64,000 bases of DNA, from contig OW203773.1 of the NCBI GenBank assembly GCA_934045905.1, forward strand, positions 20,261,246 through 20,325,245, written 5' to 3'. This DNA comes from Leuctra nigra (Eukaryota > Arthropoda > Insecta > Plecoptera > Leuctridae). The translations under genes were made by a program, and so were the position numbers. The notes under the pieces were generated by a model. The model ran no database searches and was not told the DNA's origin. It saw nothing but the letters and a program-made list of their open reading frames with translations. Shown here piece by piece: positions 4,020 through 63,243 of the stretch (the stretch's first letter is position 1; each line of letters opens with the position of its first letter).

Positions 4020-4460
4020 ATCAGGGCCGTATTAAGACCATCGTAGCCATAGGCAATATTTTTTTCGTAGGCCCCTCCCCCCCCCCCCCCCCCCCCAAAA
4101 CGAAATAATTTAATTTTTTCAGTGGTTAATTTGTAAAATAATAAGCGGGGAGACGATCAATGATCTTTAGTGTTATGCTGAAGAAAACAATGGGCACATG
4201 GGCGTCCGCAGGATTTCTGCCAAGTGGGGGCAAGGCAAGGAAAACAATATTTGACGGGTTAAGGGGAATGTGGGGGCCCCGCAGGGCGTTTTTTGGTTAT
4301 TAGACAATTTGAAATCAATTTTGAGACGTTATGAGGTGTATTTTGTTGAAATATTGAATATTTTTATAATTTGGGACGGTGAGACACTTGTTCAAACCTG
4401 CCCCGCAGGGCATTTTTTGGTTATTTGACACTTTGAAATCAATTTTCTGGCACTTTCGTA
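4020..4460. repeat. Poly-C tract and direct duplication around 'gccccgcagggc'
   Basis: A run of about 22 C stands at 4074-4096. Two diverged copies of a block of about 60 bp, each starting 'gccccgcagggc' and followed by T-rich sequence with 'gaaatcaattttg', lie at about 4275-4330 and 4399-4455. The same 'ccctgcgggg' core recurs at 36263, so this is part of a dispersed repeat. Confidence 0.55.
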
Positions 4461-4475
4461 ATGAACTGAATGGAA

Positions 4476-5195
4476 TGGAATGGACTGAGTTTAGCTGGGA
4501 TACAGTGTGGATGCTGGAGTCTAATGTACCTATCCCATGACGGCTTGTAATGGAATGAACTGAGTTTAGCTGGGATCCAGTGTGGATGCTGGAGTCTAAT
4601 GTACCTATCCCATGACGGCTTGTAATGGAAGGAACTGAGTTTAGCTGGGATACAGTGTGGATGCTGGAGTCTAATGTACCTATCCCATGACGGCTTGTAA
4701 TGGAATGAACTGAGTTTAGCTGGGATCCAGTGTGGATGCTGGAGTCTAATGTACCTATCCCATGACGGCTTGTAATGGAATGAACTGAGTTTAGCTGGGA
4801 TACAGTGTGGATGCTGGAGTCTAATGTACCTATCCCATGACGGCTTGTAATGGAATGAACTGAGTTTAGCTGGGATCCAGTGTGGATGCTAGAGTCTAAT
4901 GTACCTATCCCATGACGGCTTGTAATGGAAGGAACTGAGTTTAGCTGGGATACAGTGTGGATGCTGGAGTCTAATGTACCTATCCCATGACGGCTTGTAA
5001 TGGAATGAACTGAGTTTAGCTGGGATCCAGTGTGGATGCTGGAGTCTAATGTACCTATCCCATGACGGCTTGTAATGGAATGAACTGAGTTTAGCTGGGA
5101 TCCAGTGTGGATGCTGGAGTCTAATGTACCTATCCCATGACGCCTTGTAATGAAATGAACTGAGTTTAGCTGGGATCCAGTGTGGATGCTGGAGT
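4476..5195 (+). repeat. Tandem array, 75 bp x 9.6, with higher-order pattern
   Basis: Units start every 75 bp from 4476. A site reading gataCAG or gatcCAG alternates in copies 1-8 (A,C,A,C,A,C,A,C), then reads C,C. A second variant, 'ggaaggaac', marks copies 3 and 7, exactly 300 bp apart. The array therefore seems to have grown by copying blocks of two and four units. Confidence 0.95.
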
Positions 5196-5948
5196 CGTGA
5201 TCGAGTTTACCTCGTGTCGTGGCTGATCTCTCACTGTTAGATTAATGTCGGCCTGGGAAGCGACGCAACGAGTCGGTGCCGAGGCTTAACGTGCTCTTTA
5301 ACAGCGTGCTAGTCAGGTCGGGTGGCGCAAACTGTTTTGTATGTTTTGGACTCAACAAACCGACTTCTCAATAACTTTGAGAGGCTGTGACAGAGGTTTG
5401 ATAATTTAACATGTCAAGATATTATCTGTCGCTTCTGATGATCGAAATGTAGCCTAAAGTGTTGTTATTTTCTCTGATTTGTTGGTTCATCTTAAACCAT
5501 AATTTATTTGTCCGATCGGTAACGATTATTGAAAACATCGTTTCATTATGCTGTAACCAAATTTCGTTAAGAATGCTATAACAGTCAATTATACATACTA
5601 ATTACAATATTTGGGCAGACATTTTAAATTTTACAGCTATCTTGATGCAAAATTTTGGAAGTTCTGACATTTTTTCTCTTATGACCACTATAAACTACGA
5701 GGATATTGACCACAATTGTCCGAAATATACGTTCAACTTTCCTCCAAATTCTATAAACAAAGTGCAATATTTAATTGCTCTCTTTCCAACCTGATACTCA
5801 ATCGCAACTTTAAATTAATCATGTAAACTCGTGTTTTTGTACCTCATGCTAATATTTATTGAAAATTACGTTTATCGCGTTACGATCTTTATTGACATGA
5901 AGTGATTTGAATCAGTAATCCTCTAAAGGTTTTCTCTATAATCAATTA
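5196..5948. other. Anonymous DNA, GC-richer at its left end
   Basis: 5196-5340 is GC-richer, apparently single-copy sequence directly right of the 75-bp array. The remainder is AT-rich. No exon or RNA gene is recognised. Confidence 0.4.
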
Positions 5949-17154: not shown

Positions 17155-19168
17155 CTGAGAACAAACAAACACTCGTCAATTTCAGATGCTTGGGGAGTGA
17201 TAGTAATTCTGGAGTTCCACTGATGAACAACAATCTGTCAAGACTTTGAAAAGGTAAAGAAAAAAACATAATATTTTTTAAAATGTATATCTAAAACTCT
17301 AATAAAATCTCACAAGAGACAAATAGAAATCACATTATTTAATAATTGAAAAATAAAATAAAAACATTTTTTTTAAATACCTTTTTTTAAATATTTTTTT
17401 TTAAATATTTTAATTTTTTAAATATATTTTTTTTAATACCGAATAACCAAGGTAAGAAAATTATTTTGCTTCACAAATATAAAGATTTGTCTACACTTCG
17501 ACATTAAAAAAACGTGCAAGTCTACCCAACGAAATTAATCGTTCTCAGAGCATTCCATTCCCATTCTCTTGGGGCAAAAAGAGATGGGATAAACAGTGAA
17601 GGCTAGATCTGATTCTGGTGTGAACAATACCTGATGCAACGTACTTCGATTTCGTAGGAAATGGGTTGATTTGAGAAACAGGGTTCGATTCCGGCCGGGA
17701 GTAAAACAAACTCATTCCAAAAGCAATGGAACCTGTTTATATATAAGGGATATTCAATCTTGTCAAATTATATGAGAATCACTTCAAAACGTCAGTGAAA
17801 AGTATATAAATTACCGCCACATTAACACGAGCTCTAATACGTACCCAGTGTAAACACAGCTGGCGACAGTACGTAACCCTGAGGTACGCTCTCTGTTAAT
17901 ATCGGCGTCTATTAATCCATCAAAACGATAATCCACTAACGCGCGTTAGCAGAGCCGGACCTCGCTGTTAAGTGAACAAATAGCCATGGGTCTAGCGAGA
18001 TCGTGCTCCATCGGTTATCTCCAGATGAGATCATGTACACTCGCGGCAGCGAAGCAGGGACCTCCCTTGAAGCACATCGCAGCGCATCTCTAAGCGGACT
18101 CTTTAGTTTCACTTCATATTGAAAATAGAATAATTTGATTTTACGTTCATTTTAAATTTGAGCTTCGGTTAAAATTATCTAGAAAACTCAAGATATTTGA
18201 AAGTATTTTGCGAACATAAGACTTTACGGTTCAAATAAAAAAACACTTAGAGTGACGGTGAATGCGGTGGTAAAATAGAAGGCAAAGTGTTTTTGAAACG
18301 TCATGTTTTATGTCTTAATTATTTATATAGTTGCACTTTCATAATATATCCTGGTGAATTGTAGAATTAGCTGTTGGAAATCGACAATTCCTTGCACGTT
18401 CAAATAAGTTTTCAACACAAAATTTATGATTTTTGCTGGTAGGTCTAGTAGGTATCTTGAATGTTACTTTTGAATTAATAAAATAATTTTGAGATCGTGA
18501 TGATGCTCCAAAATGTTTGAACAAAAAAAAGAGTATTAAAATCACGAACATAGCATATGATTATACATCTATAATTATTCCGTAATTTTGCTATAGGTAT
18601 TATATTTGATCCGTTCTTTATTTGAGTTACGTTAATTTCTAAGTATTCATTAAACTTTTTCTCTGCTCTTTAAATGGTAATAGTAAATAAATTATGTATT
18701 TTTATGGAGTTTTTACTCCTGAAGAAGTCTGGGGAAATAGAAGAAATACAGTAATTTACCATTTATTGAATTCAGAAAATGTTCAAATGAAAAATACTAT
18801 TATTTTGGGGGTTTATTTTCGAACATGATTTTATCATCCATATCCTTCCAACATAATCATATTTGGCAGATATTTGGATATATGACGTAAAATTCGTACT
18901 CATTCTTAGGTAGAATCCTTATATTTAAAGAAAGATGCTGCATAACTGGTCCATTTACCAGTTCAGTAATTATAACCATTTTCGCAACACTTTCCGTTAA
19001 AATTACCCACCAAAAATTCTTCGGTTCCAGAATGCATTTCCAAATTCATATAATTATTAGACGTTTATTTTATGTTTCAGCAATTCTCCACCATCATCTC
19101 ACACTAAGCATCTCAGACCTTCTTCTACAAAACACTATTGGGTCGTTCCGGGTCAAAACACGGAAGGA
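17155..19168. other. Anonymous DNA, partly T-run-rich
   Basis: 17340-17440 is dominated by T runs and 'aaatatttttttt'. A tRNA-like box B scrap (GGTTCGATTCCGG) lies at 17682-17694. 17870-18110 is GC-richer and looks single-copy, but no frame or splice pair stands out. The rest is AT-rich. Confidence 0.4.
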
Positions 19169-20354
19169 TTTGCGTCACCCCTTTTGATTTCGACCAAACT
19201 TGGTAGGATTGTTCCATATACAAAATAAGCGGACACGTATTTTTTATTTAGGGCTTAACTGCCACGGGGTCGGCCCTACAGCCCCTTAAATAAATTCAAT
19301 TTTAACTAAGGGTGGTTTATATAAACTCTCATAACTTTGTAACCATATGACATAGGTTGATGATCTTTTTTAATAAATGTGTATAATAAGACGCGCTTTC
19401 ATAATATTATTATTTTGTTTTGTTTTATAATACATTAAGGGGTGACCAAATCACTTTTCGATTTTAAAGGGGTGGTTTTCCCAAAAAGGCCACTTTTAAA
19501 ATTTTGAAAAAAAAATATATTATTTGTGGTTATAATGTTTAAATTCTCTGAAAGTTTGGAAGTGGGCAGACTTTTCGTTAAGGCGCTAGAGACAAAAGTG
19601 TATAGTAACGTCACTCTAGCATACAACCCTATACTGCAAAAAGTTTGTCAAAGACACCATGGTAAAACATTTAAAGTAGTACGAGCACTTAATCCTTTTG
19701 TGTAATTGTAAGCAACAATAAAGAGTTAAAAAACATTTAAGAACTACAAATCCCCTCCCCACCCCACTCCCGCCCACCCCTTCTACCAATATTTATTCAA
19801 ATAGCGTCTAACGTGAGATTGGACTTTCATATGGAGAGAGGATGTTGACGGCAACTAATTAGTCATTTATTTGAAAGCAAATTGACTTCGTATCGTACGA
19901 AATTTTTCTTTCAAAATTGGGGACATAAAGTAAACTGATATTTAAAGAAAAAATGTGGCAGGGGTGACCATTTTTTAAAATATATATTCTAGTATCTTTA
20001 GAGGGATAATTCTCCAATGAGGGCACAATTCTAAATGATCAGAAAAATAAATGCTATTAATGCCATTGTTATGTACACATTCTCAGCACGTTTGAATTGG
20101 GCCGTTGCTTGATTAAGAGCTAAACATTATATGTAGTCATGTTTGTGTGAAACTTGCTGGAATCGCGCTATTTACGTTGCACTCTTCTCCAATTAGGCTA
20201 ATGGTGACAAAGGAAGGGTTGTGAGGATATTTACGACATTACCTATGAGAAAAACGGAAAGAATTGATGGTGGGAAGGAGATGGTCGCTGTCTATTAGTT
20301 AGGAACCTTCCCAGCATTTGCCTCTCGGCTTACCAAATCAAGAAACAGGGAGGT
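19169..20354 (+). repeat. Left inverted arm of the 5.2-kb transposon
   Basis: It pairs with 23230-24414. Near its outer end are 'ttcgaccaaacttggtagg' and 'aactgccacggggtcgg'. The inner end is a diverged SINE-A (20165-20350), after which similarity stops abruptly. A C/G-rich run at about 19747-19775 differs slightly in length from its partner. Confidence 0.9.
20165..20350 (-). mobile_element. SINE-A relic inside the left arm
   Basis: The SINE-A core is recognisable through 'aggctaatggtgacaaaggaa', 'ggtgggaaggagatggtcg' and 'ttcccagcatttgcctctcg', with an altered middle. The same altered copy lies inverted at 23240-23425, so it was present before the two arms became identical. Confidence 0.8.
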
Positions 20355-20876
20355 AATTCTCTACACTTCTATGTAATAAAAATATATTTAAAAATCAAGA
20401 AAAATATATCCATGAAATAGACCATATATATTTAGAATAGTTTATACACTCCTCGAATAGGTTGGCAAATGATAGATCCCAATGGCCTTCCAAAAATCTT
20501 TCGGACCTACCTTTCTTCTCACCATGCAGAAGGGTGGATTCCAAGCTTTATTGCTTTATTGCTCTCCCCCCTTGAAGACAAAGGGTGGCTCTCAAGGCGC
20601 GGTTTCGCTCTCCGAAGGGATGCCAAATGAACAGACAGCATTTTAGTGCGATTTTGAAGCTCGACTCGTGAGGTTGTGTATTATCTACTGTACCTACTTC
20701 TATTGGCATTTGAAAGTGATTTAGTGAATTGATTAACTTGACAGTTGATTTTCATCCGATTTTAAGAAAATGTGTTAACTTTGTAAACTCTGTAAACTCT
20801 TACCAGCGTATTTTGTAATTTTTTGAGTTCATACGTGTTTGTGTTTATTTTTGTTTGTTTTGGCATACTTGTTAAT
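20355..20876 (+). promoter_or_regulatory. Presumed promoter and 5' UTR of the transposase gene
   Basis: This unique sequence lies between the left arm and the start codon. It contains a GC-richer patch at 20500-20660 and T-rich DNA before the ATG. No TATA box or initiator is clear. Confidence 0.3.
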
Positions 20877-22991
20877 ATGCCAAAACAAGAGAAAACGTCT
20901 AAGGTGCTCTTCAGGTCAAGATGTTGCAACCCCTTCAACATTCAGCATCACAGAGTCACGAGAGGACTGCGTCTAATTTCAACTTTGTTGAGGTTGAAAA
21001 CACCTCAGCTTCCTGAAGGAAGTATGGTTTGTCGTCCGTGTCGAAGTAAGATTGCAAGTGACATGACTCTGCCAGATCTAGGGCCAGATGAACCGTCTCC
21101 AGCCACCCCTGCGTCAGTTCCCAGCTTGTCTTCGAGTTCAGACGGCGCTGATCCTGCACAGGTCCTCAGACCCTCAGTTCTCCCGGCAGTCGCGGGCCGC
21201 ACTTATGAGCAAGAAGTTGTTGTTTCGGCTTTGAACGAAGGTTTGGCGCTGCTTCCAATATCTCCTGTCGTGCTTAAAAAACTAACGCAAGGGAAGTACC
21301 CGCTAGCGAAGCAGAAGGAGATTGCCAAGGCGATAGAAGCAGTACTTGTACCAACGGCATCGACGTCAACAGCTGAGCCTGAAGAAGAAAGCGAGGAGAG
21401 TGAAATCATTCGACAGTTAAAAGAAAAGTTCAAGTCTACAAAAGACAGGAGCGTGCAAGTGCAAATACTGACAGTACTTCCACAAAGTTGGTCACGTGCG
21501 AAAGTTCAAACTGTGTTTGGAACAACCGAGTATATGGCACGCTTAGCCCACGATCTTGTTCTAGAAAAGGGAATCCTCTCGTCTCCTAATCCCAAACCAG
21601 GGAAAACTCTCTCTCAGAAGATCGTTGATGACGTCATATCATTTTATAATTCCGATGACGTCAGCCGATTAATGCCTGGTAAAAAAGACTGCAAGTCAGT
21701 GCAGCGCGAGGGCAAGCGAGTTGTGGTGCAGAAAAGACTTATTCTAAGCAACCTTCGCGAGCTTTATCGAGTGTTTAAAGATCAATTTCCAGACCATAAA
21801 ATAGGATTTTCCAAGTTCGCGGACCTTCGTCCCAAGGAATGTGTGTTGCCAGGAGCAAGCGGAACTCACAGCGTATGTGTCTGCACAATACATCAAAATA
21901 TGATATTGATGATGATTGGTGCGAAAATTGCAGACATTTCGGCCCAAGATGAGATGCCTTTAAAAACATTTAAAGAATGCATATCGGCTGTCATATGCAA
22001 CAACCCGCAAGTGTCCTGTTACTTCGGCGAGTGCCCAGCGTGTCCTGGAGTAACGCACCTCAAAGAGCACCTACGAGAACGCATGGATGAACATGCATAT
22101 GAAGACATTACGTTTAAAAGGTGGGTGGCAGTTGACAGGTGTTCTCTGGAAATAGTGACAATGAAAGTGGATGATTTTCTGGACAGCTTTTGCGACGCAT
22201 TAGCCATCTTAGTTCGTCACTCGTTCACCGCCACAAAACAGTCGGAATATCACAAGGAACTGAAGACCAAGCTTCAGCCAGGAGAGTTCCTTGTGATTTG
22301 CGATTTCGCGGAGAACTATTCGTTTGTGTTGCAGGACGAAGCCCAAGGGTTTCATTGGAACAATTCGTCGGCCACGATCCACCCATTTGTAGCATACTAC
22401 AATGAGGATGGCGAACTGCATCATGTCAGCCTTGTTGTAGTGTCCGATTGTCTGACACACAATACGGTGGCCGTACATTTGTTCCAAAGAAAATTAATTG
22501 AGCTTCTTACCAGTGTGTGTAACACCAGACCAACAAAAATCTTCTATTTTTCTGACGGCGCTGCGTCGCAATACAAAAATAGGAAGAATTTTGCAAATCT
22601 GTGCTGTCATGAAGAAGACTTTAACATCAAGGCAGAGTGGCATTTCTTTGCGACGTCGCATGGGAAAGCAGCATGTGACGGGGTTGGAGGGACCGTCAAG
22701 AGATTGGCCGCTCGTGCCAGCTTACAGCGCCCCTACGATGACCAGATAATGACCCCGATGCAGCTGTATAACTGGGCGAACACGAACATTCAAGCCATCA
22801 ACTTTGCTTTCTGCACTGAAGCGGACCACGAGACAGAAGCAAATGTCCTCAGAGATCGGTTTTTGCGATCACGAACCATTTCTGGTACGCAAAAACTTCA
22901 TTCTTTCATTCCGATTTCAAATTCAAAAGTTTTAACGAAAATATTTTCCTCCGCACTTCATTCAAAAGAAGAAACTGTATTCAGGAAGTAA
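20877..22991 (+). CDS. Probable DDE/D-type transposase, 704 residues, intact
   Basis: The start is the ATG at 20877. The 18 codons upstream begin with TTG, encode a hydrophobic run and are discarded. The N-terminus has Cys16-Cys17, His24-His25 and Cys52-x-x-Cys55, a likely zinc-binding DNA-recognition domain. A low-complexity Ser/Pro and acidic linker (about 70-180) follows. The middle holds CxC..H (334-339) and a second Cys cluster (381-389). The C-terminal part has three Asp-containing motifs of an RNase H-like fold: DFAENYSF (Asp476), FSDGAASQYKN (Asp560) and SHGKAACDGVGG (His595, Asp601). These are proposed catalytic residues by inference. The gene lies between the inverted arms and has no intron, frameshift or early stop, which suggests recent activity. 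A domesticated protein is the alternative. I recognise the motif set as a widespread uncharacterised animal family but cannot name the superfamily with certainty. Confidence 0.8.
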   Translation: MPKQEKTSKVLFRSRCCNPFNIQHHRVTRGLRLISTLLRLKTPQLPEGSMVCRPCRSKIASDMTLPDLGPDEPSPATPASVPSLSSSSDGADPAQVLRPSVLPAVAGRTYEQEVVVSALNEGLALLPISPVVLKKLTQGKYPLAKQKEIAKAIEAVLVPTASTSTAEPEEESEESEIIRQLKEKFKSTKDRSVQVQILTVLPQSWSRAKVQTVFGTTEYMARLAHDLVLEKGILSSPNPKPGKTLSQKIVDDVISFYNSDDVSRLMPGKKDCKSVQREGKRVVVQKRLILSNLRELYRVFKDQFPDHKIGFSKFADLRPKECVLPGASGTHSVCVCTIHQNMILMMIGAKIADISAQDEMPLKTFKECISAVICNNPQVSCYFGECPACPGVTHLKEHLRERMDEHAYEDITFKRWVAVDRCSLEIVTMKVDDFLDSFCDALAILVRHSFTATKQSEYHKELKTKLQPGEFLVICDFAENYSFVLQDEAQGFHWNNSSATIHPFVAYYNEDGELHHVSLVVVSDCLTHNTVAVHLFQRKLIELLTSVCNTRPTKIFYFSDGAASQYKNRKNFANLCCHEEDFNIKAEWHFFATSHGKAACDGVGGTVKRLAARASLQRPYDDQIMTPMQLYNWANTNIQAINFAFCTEADHETEANVLRDRFLRSRTISGTQKLHSFIPISNSKVLTKIFSSALHSKEETVFRK

Positions 22992-23229
22992 TGATCCATA
23001 GAATTCAAAACTTGCACATAGATTCAGAACAGTGGTTTTAAACCTTTCCACTTGAAAAAAAAGACCTCATACATTGGTTGGGACCTTGGCGAGGTTATGG
23101 GGCTTATACCAACGCCAACCAATTACTAACCATTACTTATATAATATGTCATGGAAGTAATACCTATGCCTAAGACAGTAATGCTCTAAATTTGCACTCT
23201 GGAGGTGCCTGTTTCATTTCCGTAACCTA

Positions 23230-24414
23230 TACCTTCCTATTTCTTGATTTGGTAAGCCGAGAGGCAAATGCTGGGAAGGTTCCTAACTAATAGACAGCGA
23301 CCATCTCCTTCCCACCATCAATTCTTTCCGTTTTTCTCATAGGTACTGTCGTAAATATCCTCACAACCCTTCCTTTGTCACCATTAGCCTAATTGGAGAA
23401 GAGTGCAACGTAAATAGCGCGATTCCAGCAAGTTTCACACAAACATGACTACATATAATGTTTAGCTCTTAATCAAGCAACGGCCCAATTCAAACGTGCT
23501 GAGAATGTGTACATAACAATGGCATTAATAGCATTTATTTTTCTGATCATTTAGAATTGCTCATTGGAGAATTATCCCTCTAAAGATACTAGAATATATA
23601 TTTTAAAAAATGGTCACCCCTGTCACATTTTTTCTTTAAATATCAGTTTACTTTATGTCCCCAATTTTGAAAGAAAAATTTTGTACGATACGAAGTCAAT
23701 TTGCTTTCAAATAAATGACTAATTAGTTGCCGTCAACATCCTCTCTCCATATGAAAGTCCAATCTCACGTTAGACGCTATTTGAATAAATATTGGTAGAA
23801 GGGGTGGGCGGGAGTGGGGGGGGGGGAGGGGATTTGTAGTTCTTAAATGTTTTTTAACTCTTTATTGTTGCTTACAATTACACAAAAGGATTAAGTGCTC
23901 GTACTACATTAAATGTTTTACCATGGTCTCTTTGACAAACTTTTTGCAGTATAGGGTTGTATGCTATAGTGACGTTAATATACGCTTTTGTCTCTAGCGC
24001 CTTAACGAAAAATCTGCCCACTTCCAAACTTTCAGGGAATTTGAACATTATAACCACAAATAATATATATTTTTTTCAAAATTTTAAAAGTGGCCTTTTC
24101 GGGGAAACCACCCCTTTAAAATCAAAAAGTGATTTGGTCACCCCTTAATGTATTATAAAACAAAACAAAATAATAATTTTATGAAAGCGCGTCTTATTAT
24201 ACACATTTATTAAAAAAGATCATCAACCTATGTCATATGGTTACAAAGTTATGAGAGTTTATATAAACCACCCTTAGTTAAAATCGAATTTATTTAAGGG
24301 GCTGTAGGGCCGACCCCGTGGCAGTTAAGCCCTAAATAAAAAATACGTGTCCGCTTATTTTGTATATGGAACAATCCTACCAAGTTTGGTCGAAATCAAA
24401 AGGGGTGACGCAAA
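23230..24414 (-). repeat. Right inverted arm of the 5.2-kb transposon
   Basis: It is the complement of the left arm. The inner end again coincides with the SINE-A relic. A G-run at 23810-23840 is longer than the matching C-run in the left arm. The outer end reads GGGTGACGCAAAA at 24403-24415. Confidence 0.9.
23240..23425 (+). mobile_element. SINE-A relic inside the right arm
   Basis: This is the mirror image of 20165-20350, with the same diagnostic changes ('gtcgtaaatatcctcacaac' in place of the usual ATC triplets). Confidence 0.8.
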
Positions 24415-25139
24415 AAATCTTGACTATTTGGGTGCTTTGAAATGGATTTACCCTATTATATAAATCACTTAACAAAATTGAGTCATAAATCTAAACTATT
24501 GGCAATTGAACAGAAAACCCAATCAATATTATCAACTTTTATGATAATATTAATTGATAATCTCTCAGACAAATTACGTGCATAAGCCAGCAAGAGTCTT
24601 AATGTTAATTACTTAATAATATACCAGAAGACGTGATTGTTTAAAATCGTGCTAAAGCAAGTGGAAGAAGTTCTTACTTGCTAGACGGGTTTGCTACAGA
24701 ACTTAACTGTTCAGTTAGAATGATAAATGAGATAATGTTATCCATTAGCTAGATTCTAAATGATATTTTACGAAAGTGTTTTTGCCGTGTGTTGGATTTT
24801 CTCGTTCGTGAGAAAAGTTTTGGATTTGTGATTAGATTTTGTAAAGTGTTTTGACGGAGAGTGTGAAGGATTGGAAGATGATTATAGTTGAGCAATGGGA
24901 AAGGAGGTATGTTAGTTGGATATGCATTTACAAGCTTTTGTCCATATTGTGGAACATACTTTCTATCAAATACTGTTGCAGATTGCAATATAATATTTAA
25001 AAAAAAAGTAAAATTGATTTTTTTTTCCAGAAATTGGTTAGATTTAAAAATAACTAGAAAAAATGCTAGATTATTAAATTCAAGTCTGTTTTTTCAATGG
25101 AATACTCTTTGTATATTTTCATATATTATGTCGTTTGTT
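24415..25139. other. Anonymous AT-rich DNA
   Basis: Open frames on both strands near 24749-25169 overlap and lack exon signals. Nothing is supported. Confidence 0.4.
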
Positions 25140-32610: not shown

Positions 32611-35600
32611 AGTCCGCCCTCGAGCCATGTCCTCTGCACTGTGATGACACTTGCAACCCGTCCGCCCGGCAGCATGTCCTCTGCACTGTGATGACACTTG
32701 CAACCCGTCCGCCCGGCAGCATGTCCTCTGCACTGTGATGACACTTGCAACCCGTCCGCCCGGCAGCATGTCCTCTGCACTGTGATGACACTTGCAACCC
32801 GTCCGCCCGGCAGCATGTCCTCTGCACTGTGATGACACTTGCAACCCGTCCGCCCGGCAGCATGTCCTCTGCACTGTGATGACACTTGCAACCCGTCCGC
32901 CCGGCAGCATGTCCTCTGCACTGTGATGACACTTGCAACCCGTCCGCCCGGCAGCATGTCCTCTGCACTGTGATGACACTTGCAACCCGTCCGCCCGGCA
33001 GCATGTCCTCTGCACTGTGATGACACTTGCAACCCGTCCGCCCGGCAGCATGTCCTCTGCACTGTGATGACACTCGCAACCCGTCCGCCCGGCAGCATGT
33101 CCTCTGCACTGTGATGACACTCGCAACCCGTCCGCCCGGCAGCATGTCCTCTGCACTGTGATGACACTCGCAACCCGTCCGCCCGGCAGCATGTCCTCTG
33201 CACTGTGATGACACTCGCAACCCGTCCGCCCGGCAGCATGTCCTCTGCACTGTGATGACACTCGCAACCCGTCCGCCCGGCAGCATGTCCTCTGCACTGT
33301 GATGACACTCGCAACCCGTCCGCCCGGCAGCATGTCCTCTGCACTGTGTTGACACTTGCAACCCGTCCGCCCGGCAGCATGTCCTCTGCACTGTGATGAC
33401 ACTTGCAACCCGTCCGCCCGGCAGCATGTCCTCTGCACTGTGATGACACTTGCAACCCGTCCGCCCGGCAGCATGTCCTCTGCACTGTGATGACACTTGC
33501 AACCCGTCCGCCCGGCAGCATGTCCTCTGCACTGTGATGACACTTGCAACCCGTCCGCCCGGCAGCATGTCCTCTGCACTGTGATGACACTCGCAACCGG
33601 TCCGCCCGGCAGCATGTCCTCTGCACTGTGATGACACTGGCAACCCGTCCGCCCGGCAGCATGTCCTCTGCACTGTGATGACACTTGCAACCCGTCCGCC
33701 CGGCAGCATGTCCTCTGCACTGTGATGACACTTGCAACCCGTCCGCCCGGCAGCATGTCCTCTGCACTGTGATGACACTTGCAACCCGTCCGCCCGGCAG
33801 CATGTCCTCTGCACTGTGATGACACTCGCAACCCGTCCGCCCGGCAGCATGTCCTCTGCACTGTGATGACACTCGCAACCCGTCCGCCCGGCAGCATGTC
33901 CTCTGCACTGTGATGACACTCGCAACCCGTCCGCCCGGCAGCATGTCCTCTGCACTGTGATGACACTCGCAACCCGTCCGCCCGGCAGCATGTCCTCTGC
34001 ACTGTGATGACACTCGCAACCCGTCCGCCCGGCAGCATGTCCTCTGCACTGTGATGACACTCGCAACCCGTCCGCCCGGCAGCATGTCCTCTGCACTGTG
34101 ATGACACTCGCAACCCGTCCGCCCGGCAGCATGTCCTCTGCACTGTGAAGACACTCGCAACCCGTCCGCCCGGCAGCATGTCCTCTGCACTGTGATGACA
34201 CTCGCAACCCGTCCGCCCGGCAGCATGTCCTCTGCACTGTGATGACACTCGCAACCCGTCCGCCCGGCAGCATGTCCTCTGCACTGTGATGACACTCGCA
34301 ACCCGTCCGCCCGGCAGCATGTCCTCTGCACTGTGATGACACTCGCAACCCGTCCGCCCGGCAGCATGTCCTCTGCACTGTGATGACACTCGCAACCCGT
34401 CCGCCCGGCAGCATGTCCTCTGCACTGTGATGACACTCGCAACCCGTCCGCCCGGCAGCATGTCCTCTGCACTGTGATGACACTTGCAACCCGTCCGCCC
34501 CGCAGCATGTCCTCTGCACTGTGATGACACTCGCAACCCGTCCGCCCGGCAGCATGTCCTCTGCACTGTGAAGACACTCGCAACCCGTCCGCCCGGCAGC
34601 ATGTCCTCTGCACTGTGATGACACTCGCAACCCGTCCGCCCGGCAGCATGTCCTCTGCACTGTGATGACACTCGCAACCCGTCCGCCCGGCAGCATGTCC
34701 TCTGCACTGTGATGACACTCGCAACCCGTCCGCCCGGCAGCATGTCCTCTGCACTGTGATGACACTCGCAACCCGTCCGCCCGGCAGCATGTCCTCTGCA
34801 CTGTGATGACACTCGCAACCCGTCCGCCCGGCAGCATGTCCTCTGCACTGTGATGACACTCGCAACCCGTCCGCCCGGCAGCATGTCCTCTGCACTGTGA
34901 TGACACTTGCAACCCGTCCGCCCGGCAGCATGTCTTCTGCACTGTGATGACACTTGCAACCCGTCCGCCCGGCAGCATGTCCTCTGCACTGTGATGACAC
35001 TTGCAACCCGTCCGCCCGGCAGCATGTCCTCTGCACTGTGATGACACTCGCAACCCGTCCGCCCGGCAGCATGTCCTCTGCACTGTGATGACACTCGCAA
35101 CCCGTCCGCCCGGCAGCATGTCCTCTGCACTGTGATGACACTCGCAACCCGTCCGCCCGGCAGCATGTCCTCTGCACTGTGATGACACTCGCAACCCGTC
35201 CGCCCGGCAGCATGTCCTCTGCACTGTGATGACACTCGCAACCCGTCCGCCCGGCAGCATGTCCTCTGCACTGTGATGACACTCGCAACCCGTCCGCCCG
35301 GCAGCATGTCCTCTGCACTGTGATGACACTCGCAACCCGTCCGCCCGGCAGCATGTCCTCTGCACTGTGATGACACTCGCAACCCGTCCGCCCGGCAGCA
35401 TGTCCTCTGCACTGTGATGACACTCGCAACCCGTCCGCCCGGCAGCATGTCCTCTGCACTGTGATGACACTCGCAACCCGTCCGCCCGGCAGCATGTCCT
35501 CTGCACTGTGATGACACTCGCAACCCGTCCGCCCGGCAGCATGTCCTCTGCACTGTGATGACACTCGCAACCCGTCCGCCCGGCAGCATGTCCTCTGCAC

Positions 35601-35967
35601 TGTGATGACACTCGCAACCCGTCCGCCCGGCAGCATGTCCTCTGCACTGTGATGACACTTGCAACCCGTCCGCCCGGCAGCATGTCCTCTGCACTGTGAT
35701 GACACTCGCAACCCGTCCGCCCGGCAGCATGTCCTCTGCACTGTGATGACACTCGCAACCCGTCCGCCCGGCAGCATGTCCTCTGCACTGTGATGACACT
35801 GGCAACCCGTCCGCCCGGCAGCATGTCCTCTGCACTGTGATGACACTTGCAACCCGTCCGCCCGGCAGCATGTCCTCTGCACTGTGATGACACTTGCAAC
35901 CCGTCCGCCCGGCAGCATGTCCTCTGCACTGTGATGACACTTGCAACCCGTCCGCCCGGCACCATGT
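32611..35967. repeat. Minisatellite, 47 bp x 71 copies
   Basis: Units beginning 'atgtcctctgcactgtgatg' repeat every 47 bp from 32627; the ATG of the unit after the 71st complete copy is at 35964. Copies are nearly identical. The main variant is one base in 'cact?gcaaccc', T, C or (twice) G. Because 47 leaves remainder 2 on division by 3 and the minus-strand unit has no stop in any frame, all three minus-strand frames stay open for over 3.3 kb and translate to the same 47-residue peptide repeat. These are by-products, not genes. A SINE-A follows within 60 bp. Confidence 0.98.
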
Positions 35968-62194: not shown

Positions 62195-63243
62195 TGAGCG
62201 TGGCCTTGAAGAGTTTTTTAATTGATTTTTATCAATATCTTTTACCAATGTAATTGTTAACGAAATAGGGCTTTGTACGAGTATTCAGAACAGTTCAATG
62301 AATATATAATTACATAGTTTGGAATAAGTTATTATAGTTTTATTTTGTCCAACAGATGTTTAGTACCATAATTTTACTAATTTTCGGGCACTAAACATCT
62401 GTAGGACAAAGTAAATCTAATAAACCATTACAAGCTATGGAATTATTTTCATTGAACTGTTCTGAATACGCGTACAAAGCCTTATTTTGTTAACCATTAC
62501 TAGCCCAGTAATTTAAAGCAAAAAATAGCTGAACCCACCACTAATTGCAACAGAAGGTTTCAATACATGAATCGATTCAGAAAAATGCCCTCTACAACAT
62601 ATCCAAAATCCTTACGAATCCGAGTGCCGGAAGTACTTTTTAATCACTTTTTAAGATAATTTCCCATGTTAATTCCATCCTCAAAAAAAAAATGTTTTTT
62701 CATGTAACTCTGATTTTAACGAAATTTGGCAGAATTGTTCACCATCCTAAATGAACACAAATAGCTCTCTTAGCATTTTCCTCTAAATCTCATCGTTTGG
62801 GAAATATGGACCTCGCAAAACGTCAAATTACACTCAAAGTGGCCTAATCGTCGAAAACTGACAAAAATATTACTTTTTAATGGGCCATATTTCCCAAACG
62901 ATGAGATTTAGAGGAAAACGCTAAGAGAGCTATTTGTGTTTATTTAGGATGGTGAACAATTCTGCCAAGTTTCGTCAAAATCGGAGTTACATGAAAAAAC
63001 ATGTTTTTGGAAGATGAAATTAACATGGGAAAAAACTTAAAAAGTGATTAAAAAGTACTTCCGGCACTCGGATTCGGGAGGATTTTGGATATGTTGTAGA
63101 GGACATTTTTCTGAATCGATTCATGTATTGAAACCTTCTGTTGCAATTAGTGGTGGGTATAATCACAAAATTACTGGACTATACATTGGTAAAAGATATT
63201 GATAAAAACCGATTAAAAAACTCTTCAAGGTCAAACTCACTAC
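62195..63243. mobile_element. F5 foldback MITE split by a 681-bp insertion
   Basis: 62195-62500 and 63182-63243 together match 47306-47669. The break falls at 'aaccattac' / 'tacattgg', where the uninterrupted copy reads 'aacaattacattgg'. Confidence 0.9.
62501..63181. mobile_element. 681-bp palindromic MITE with TAC target duplication
   Basis: TAC (62498-62500 and 63182-63184) flanks the element. The termini are TAGCCCAGTAATTT and, on the complement, TAGTCCAGTAATTT. The two halves are complementary almost to the centre near 62845. 'gaaatttggcagaattgttc' and its mirror are subterminal landmarks resembling the outer arm of the 5.2-kb transposon. Confidence 0.9.

Follow-up and report, generated by a model that had tools for sequence, protein, structure and literature searches.

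Sola elements are DNA transposons with a DDD transposase and 4-bp target duplications, and published excerpts give most of them a length of 2-9 kb and terminal inverted repeats (TIRs) of 11-1124 bp (PMC10741241). Sola2-type elements of dictyostelids are described there as leaving AWWT duplications (PMC3627910), and Sola2 elements are reported to be abundant in Cotesia congregata, with Sola2-derived miniature inverted-repeat transposable elements present in bracovirus segments (PMC7822920). The present analysis concerns a stretch of 64,000 nucleotides from Leuctra nigra (assembly GCA_934045905.1, contig OW203773.1, positions 20,261,246 to 20,325,245 of the forward strand), hereafter the window, in whose coordinates positions are given. 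It contains, at 19140-24453 on the forward strand, a complete DNA transposon of 5314 bp that was mobile very recently and encodes a predicted DDD transposase.

The element agrees with the Sola2 group of Sola, as far as these excerpts describe it, in its predicted DDD transposase, its 4-bp duplications and its size, which lies inside the 2-9 kb range, and broadly also in the A/T centre of the duplications and in its long TIRs, which are found in part of the group. The inverted arms (about 1187 bp) are slightly longer than the cited Sola maximum of 1124 bp and far longer than the 12-21 bp given in the excerpts for the dictyostelid Sola2-type elements, and they differ from those of Sola in stopping 29 and 39 bp before the tips. 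Provided that the locus is read as a transposon, its membership in Sola is quite probable, as judged from published descriptions rather than from directly compared proteins, and a Sola2-like group appears to be the most likely placement. It is a well-defined new example and not a new kind of element.

Element ends, target sites and genomic copies

A first-pass annotation had placed the element at 19169..24414 and had found no obvious target duplication. The ends were compared against 8 initial loci and then 20 further fetched loci of the same genome (536 Mb in 144 contigs), and the sequence shared with these copies extends to 19140 and 24453, where the element begins with GGGT and ends with ACCC; the earlier limits are those of the arms only. 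A TATT duplication abuts both corrected ends (19136-19139 and 24454-24457). It had been missed because the termini were wrong, the true left tip (29 bp, 19140-19168, forward strand) and right tip (39 bp, 24415-24453, reverse strand) matching each other only imperfectly. The further copies in which the annotation had proposed to look for a duplication supplied both the true ends and the 4-bp duplication. The nearly equal inverted arms that it had described (19169-20355 on the forward strand and 23230-24414 on the reverse strand, each about 1.19 kb) were confirmed and pair in three ungapped blocks of 612, 330 and 270 nt (96, 99 and 98% complementary, respectively). A hairpin in the left tip showed no excess over shuffled sequence (z -0.91).

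Both ends could be read in 18 insertions, namely that of the window and those of 17 of the 20 fetched loci (L021, L023 and L025 are without one end in the stretch fetched). The 4-bp duplications are perfect in 16 of the 18 and agree at three of four bases in the remaining two, and the flanking sequences of the 18 insertions show no mutual match. A pyrimidine directly precedes the duplication at 17 sites and a purine directly follows it at all 18. Compared with the AWWT given for dictyostelid Sola2-type elements in the excerpt cited above, the inner two bases here are A or T in 16/18 and 17/18, while the outer two are free. The insertion preference is therefore a symmetric Y|NWWN|R, derived from the same 18 sites without a separate background set; such symmetry is the expectation if two subunits act, one on each strand. 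As a separate observation, the left flank of locus L009 is 90% identical to window positions 62667-62995, which are also matched in inverted orientation.

Genome searches returned at least 41 matches to the arm (40 of 208 candidates scored) and at least 64 to the protein (63 of 571 candidates scored), and codons 1-704 are fully covered, stop-free and 98-100% identical in 32 of the 64 protein matches listed, the window included. The 20 fetched loci were picked among the best arm matches and so do not sample the copies at random. Thirteen of them give a single continuous alignment of about 5.3 kb with 99.6-99.9% identity; the rest include loci that are interrupted, fetched only in part, or older (arms of L025 97.5-98.6% identical, L027 about 98%). 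The 18 ungapped open reading frames (ORFs) available from the window and 17 of these loci contain no stop codon and only 14 distinct changes from the majority sequence. Near-identical copies with open ORFs imply very recent movement; thus, the element has been mobile very recently, and it is probably still active at present. The earlier description of a complete, possibly active transposon of DDE/D type is supported by these copies and their 4-bp duplications, together with the predicted catalytic core described below.

The predicted transposase and its relatives

The intact gene noted in the first-pass annotation is an uninterrupted ATG-initiated ORF of 704 codons (20877-22991, forward strand, as are all features of the protein). 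Its three Asp motifs and N-terminal Cys/His cluster had likewise been recognised correctly. The putative catalytic residues D476 (DFAENYSF; 22302-22304), D560 (FSDGAASQYKN; 22554-22556) and D601 (SHGKAACDGVGG; 22677-22679) are invariant in all 37 proteins of an alignment, A1, composed of the window protein and 36 of 120 listed homologues from 879 hits. The structure prediction that had been proposed as a check yielded an RNase H core of the retroviral-integrase/transposase type at residues 464-642 (22266-22802), in which D476 lies between the model strands 470-475 and 479-486, D560 at the end of strand 554-560 and D601 inside helix 594-617. The conserved CC...H...CxxC cluster (residues 16-55; 20922-21041) is putatively zinc-binding, the helix-turn-helix-like helices of the model (residues 191-231; 21447-21569) are putatively DNA-binding, and a conserved Cys/His-rich segment with invariant Cys and His columns (residues 331-391; 21867-22049) may also bind zinc. 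The fold and the triad predicted here suggest that the protein is a DDD transposase.

Retroviral integrases, Mos1, Metnase, IstA and the V-K CAST transposase are the structural relatives of the model, with 7-16% identity over aligned residues, a likeness in fold and mechanism class and not one of membership. Foldseek searches against the PDB gave 872 matches at E<=10, of which not one reached E<=0.001, and those against viral models gave 581 at E<=10 and a single one, to an unnamed protein, at E<=0.001 (TMq 0.15).

At least 879 homologues of the window protein were found, two of which are named to insects. The 'Cc8L18.2-like' proteins of Bemisia tabaci (P0067) and Brassicogethes aeneus (P0092) are 48% identical to the query across 93-96% of its length. 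Names found among the relatives are 'Cc8L18.2-like', 'transposase', 'hypothetical' and 'unnamed'; the Cc8L18 names had no match in the literature searched. For the window protein and the relatives tested, searches of Pfam, NCBIfam and PDB sequences returned sub-threshold unrelated hits only, and the finding that the first-pass annotation had named as speaking against a transposon, a confident profile match to a non-transposase host family, was absent from the Pfam and PDB-sequence results. Scans with a peptide pattern, which distant relatives can escape, found 7 fitting stretches in viral contigs and 44 in bacterial and archaeal (GTDB) contigs, none of which encodes a relative. The family is thus large, yet without a profile in the Pfam and NCBIfam copies searched. 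The window element provides a clean, full-length and recently active representative for which the exact ends, the length of the duplication and the target motif are established; this suffices for building an annotation profile and for assessing the family's use in gene transfer.

Relatives at 54-70% protein identity exist in the same genome, and seven such loci (L029-L035) were fetched. Between the window ORF and these loci synonymous sites are saturated and nonsynonymous divergence (dN) is 0.28-0.42; the ratio of nonsynonymous to synonymous divergence (dN/dS) is 0.27 for L031 against L034. The transposase protein is constrained by purifying selection across the families. Inverted arms of roughly 0.28-0.69 kb occur in six of the seven loci, the exception being L030. 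By eye, L032, L033 and L035 share the tips GGGTAAAAAC/GAGTAAAAAC with the duplications AATA, AGAG and CTTA, and L031 has the tips GGCTAATTCC/GACTAATTCC with the duplication AGGG, where a run of G leaves the register slightly ambiguous. A right end of L032 at 6174 was rejected after comparison with L033 and L035. These four sister loci obey the target motif only in part (Y 3/4, R 3/4, inner W 5/8). The start of L029, GGGTCATTCC, agrees in 10 of its first 11 bases with the left tip of the window element; neither the right end of L029 nor the left end of L034 could be located. Within the same clade, L029 and L030 make up another transposon family, whose 809-codon open frame retains the C-terminal domain described next.

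Among the 37 A1 proteins, 35 extend into an extra C-terminal domain of about 95 residues (GFVTC...WWLACVL...), P0106 and the window protein being the exceptions. L029 and L030 have the domain as well; it is absent from L031-L035, which represent two sister families. PDB profiles gave weak SH3 matches to this domain of the relatives (best E 0.36). In a search for a C-terminal exon with the last 140 amino acids of six homologues, matches to the window element end near the ORF end; one homologue match, that of P0092, continued about 40 bases beyond the stop. Two alignments in L034 passed the stop into the start of the domain (E 0.004 and 0.11) and were read as chance matches over a conserved non-coding stretch.

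This stretch, at 23030-23106 on the forward strand, stands where the domain would follow and is conserved at the DNA level among the window element and the sister families L031/L034 and L032/L035. Its identity is 92% to L031 and 80% to L032 and falls to 41-50% just beyond, compared with 64% and 61%, respectively, for the ORF and 78% and 79% for the best 77-bp windows within it; for L032 the stretch exceeds the best ORF window only marginally. It is apparently non-coding, since indels within it shift the frame. BLAST found no match to it in L029 or L030. Searching Rfam with the element gave three matches at E<=1, all far below the gathering score and none over the stretch, and in a consensus fold of four sequences none of 19 pairs had changed on both sides. 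A role as a regulatory or end-processing signal is possible, as is a recent exchange between families. The element allows the roles of the long arms, the missing domain and this stretch to be tested. In a separate observation, the copy at L022 is interrupted, at the place matching window position 23104, by about 1.2 kb of inserted sequence (about 4420-5610) that has internal repeats and lacks the C-terminal transposase domain.

Placement and rival explanations

Several other groups of DNA transposons were compared with the element. PiggyBac and Kolobok also generate 4-bp duplications, but theirs are TTAA-specific according to the excerpts, and TTAA occurs in none of the 18 duplications here. 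For hAT, P, MuDR, Kolobok and Dada a C/DxxH motif between the second D and the last D/E is described (PMC9587614); none is present between D560 and D601, where H578, H589 and H595 have neither C nor D three residues earlier. IS481EU termini, stated for Histomonas families (PMC10045372), are TGT...ACA, compared with GGGT...ACCC here. Even with E values up to 10 admitted, no integrase-core family is among the Pfam hits of the window protein, nor is an integrase core among the 25 of 46 Pfam families listed for the A1 members. A match to such a profile is a hallmark of Ginger elements, and these listed hits do not support a placement with Ginger or the retroviral-type integrases.

The superfamily, which the first-pass annotation had left uncertain, is thereby narrowed to Sola, Sola2-like, as the most likely and not as a proved assignment. 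Taken as a whole, the locus is probably an autonomous, recently mobile DDD cut-and-paste transposon, most likely of this kind. In this reading the element ends would be recognised by the helix-turn-helix-like region together with the N-terminal Cys/His cluster, cleavage and joining of DNA would fall to the RNase H core through D476, D560 and D601, and integration at Y|NWWN|R sites, staggered by 4 bp, would leave the duplications beside GGGT...ACCC. It is unlikely, though worth weighing, that the element belongs to a separate DDD superfamily with 4-bp duplications, distinct from Sola and unnamed in the resources searched. The lack of significant Pfam, NCBIfam and PDB-sequence matches for the window protein and the relatives tested, and the names that the relatives bear, would fit such a superfamily. 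Against it, the A/T-centred duplications, the DDD triad, the 5-kb size and the long TIRs agree with the excerpts describing Sola, and Cotesia congregata, in which Sola2 elements are abundant as cited at the outset, is presumably the origin of the Cc8L18.2 name. P0067 and P0092, which bear that name, have the Asp motifs of the window protein and differ from it in the extra C-terminal domain. A fuller form of this proposal, which we also regard as doubtful, would make the 'Cc8L18.2-like' elements a superfamily apart from Sola with a DDD triad, two Cys/His clusters, G(G/A)(G/C)T termini, 4-bp duplications and arms of 0.3-1.2 kb; one lineage in it would have exchanged the C-terminal domain for the stop-adjacent non-coding stretch, acting as DNA or RNA, and would carry repeated end-binding sites in its arms (AGGGGTGAC here).

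Autonomy is the point at issue in another explanation, in which a longer relative mobilises the window element in trans and the element's own protein, shortened at its C terminus, is impaired. The domain missing here and retained in most A1 proteins and in L029/L030 is compatible with this, and the likeness of the left tips of L029 and the window element means that the longer protein might recognise the window ends. At least 32 copies nevertheless keep the full ORF open, the two further families of L031-L035 also lack the domain yet have open frames, and the catalytic core is complete; we therefore consider mobilisation in trans rather improbable. That the ORF is a host gene or a domesticated transposase lying by chance between inverted repeats would accord with its intactness and with the purifying selection on the family, but is scarcely credible given how many nearly identical copies lie dispersed in the genome, bounded by 4-bp duplications and set in mutually unmatched flanks. 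The autonomous, Sola2-like transposon thus remains the preferred account.

Repeated arm motif and other repeats in the window

The 9-mer AGGGGTGAC occurs three times in each arm; for the left end region, five shuffles out of 1000 produced a 9-mer with at least four G/C that was repeated as often. All six occurrences of GGGGTGAC in the 64-kb window fall in the arms, where 0.9 are expected and six were reached in none of 100 shuffles, a count to be read with the caution that the right arm copies the left and the occurrences are hence not independent. They lie in the left arm at 19174-19181 (motif 1, reverse strand), 19439-19446 (motif 2, forward) and 19961-19968 (motif 3, forward), and in the right arm at 23613-23620 (motif 3, reverse), 24137-24144 (motif 2, reverse) and 24402-24409 (motif 1, forward). 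Among the sister loci GGGGTGAC is found three times in L031 and once in L034, not always within the arms, and is absent from L029, L030, L032, L033 and L035. The motif is a candidate site for transposase binding in some members of the clade.

Three minisatellites were observed elsewhere in the window, with a 102-bp unit at 1862-2375 (5.0 copies, 100% match), a 75-bp unit at 4474-5196 (9.6 copies, 97% match) and a 47-bp unit at 32626-35967 (71 copies, 99% match); across the last of these, three reverse-strand frames run without a stop for more than 1100 codons.
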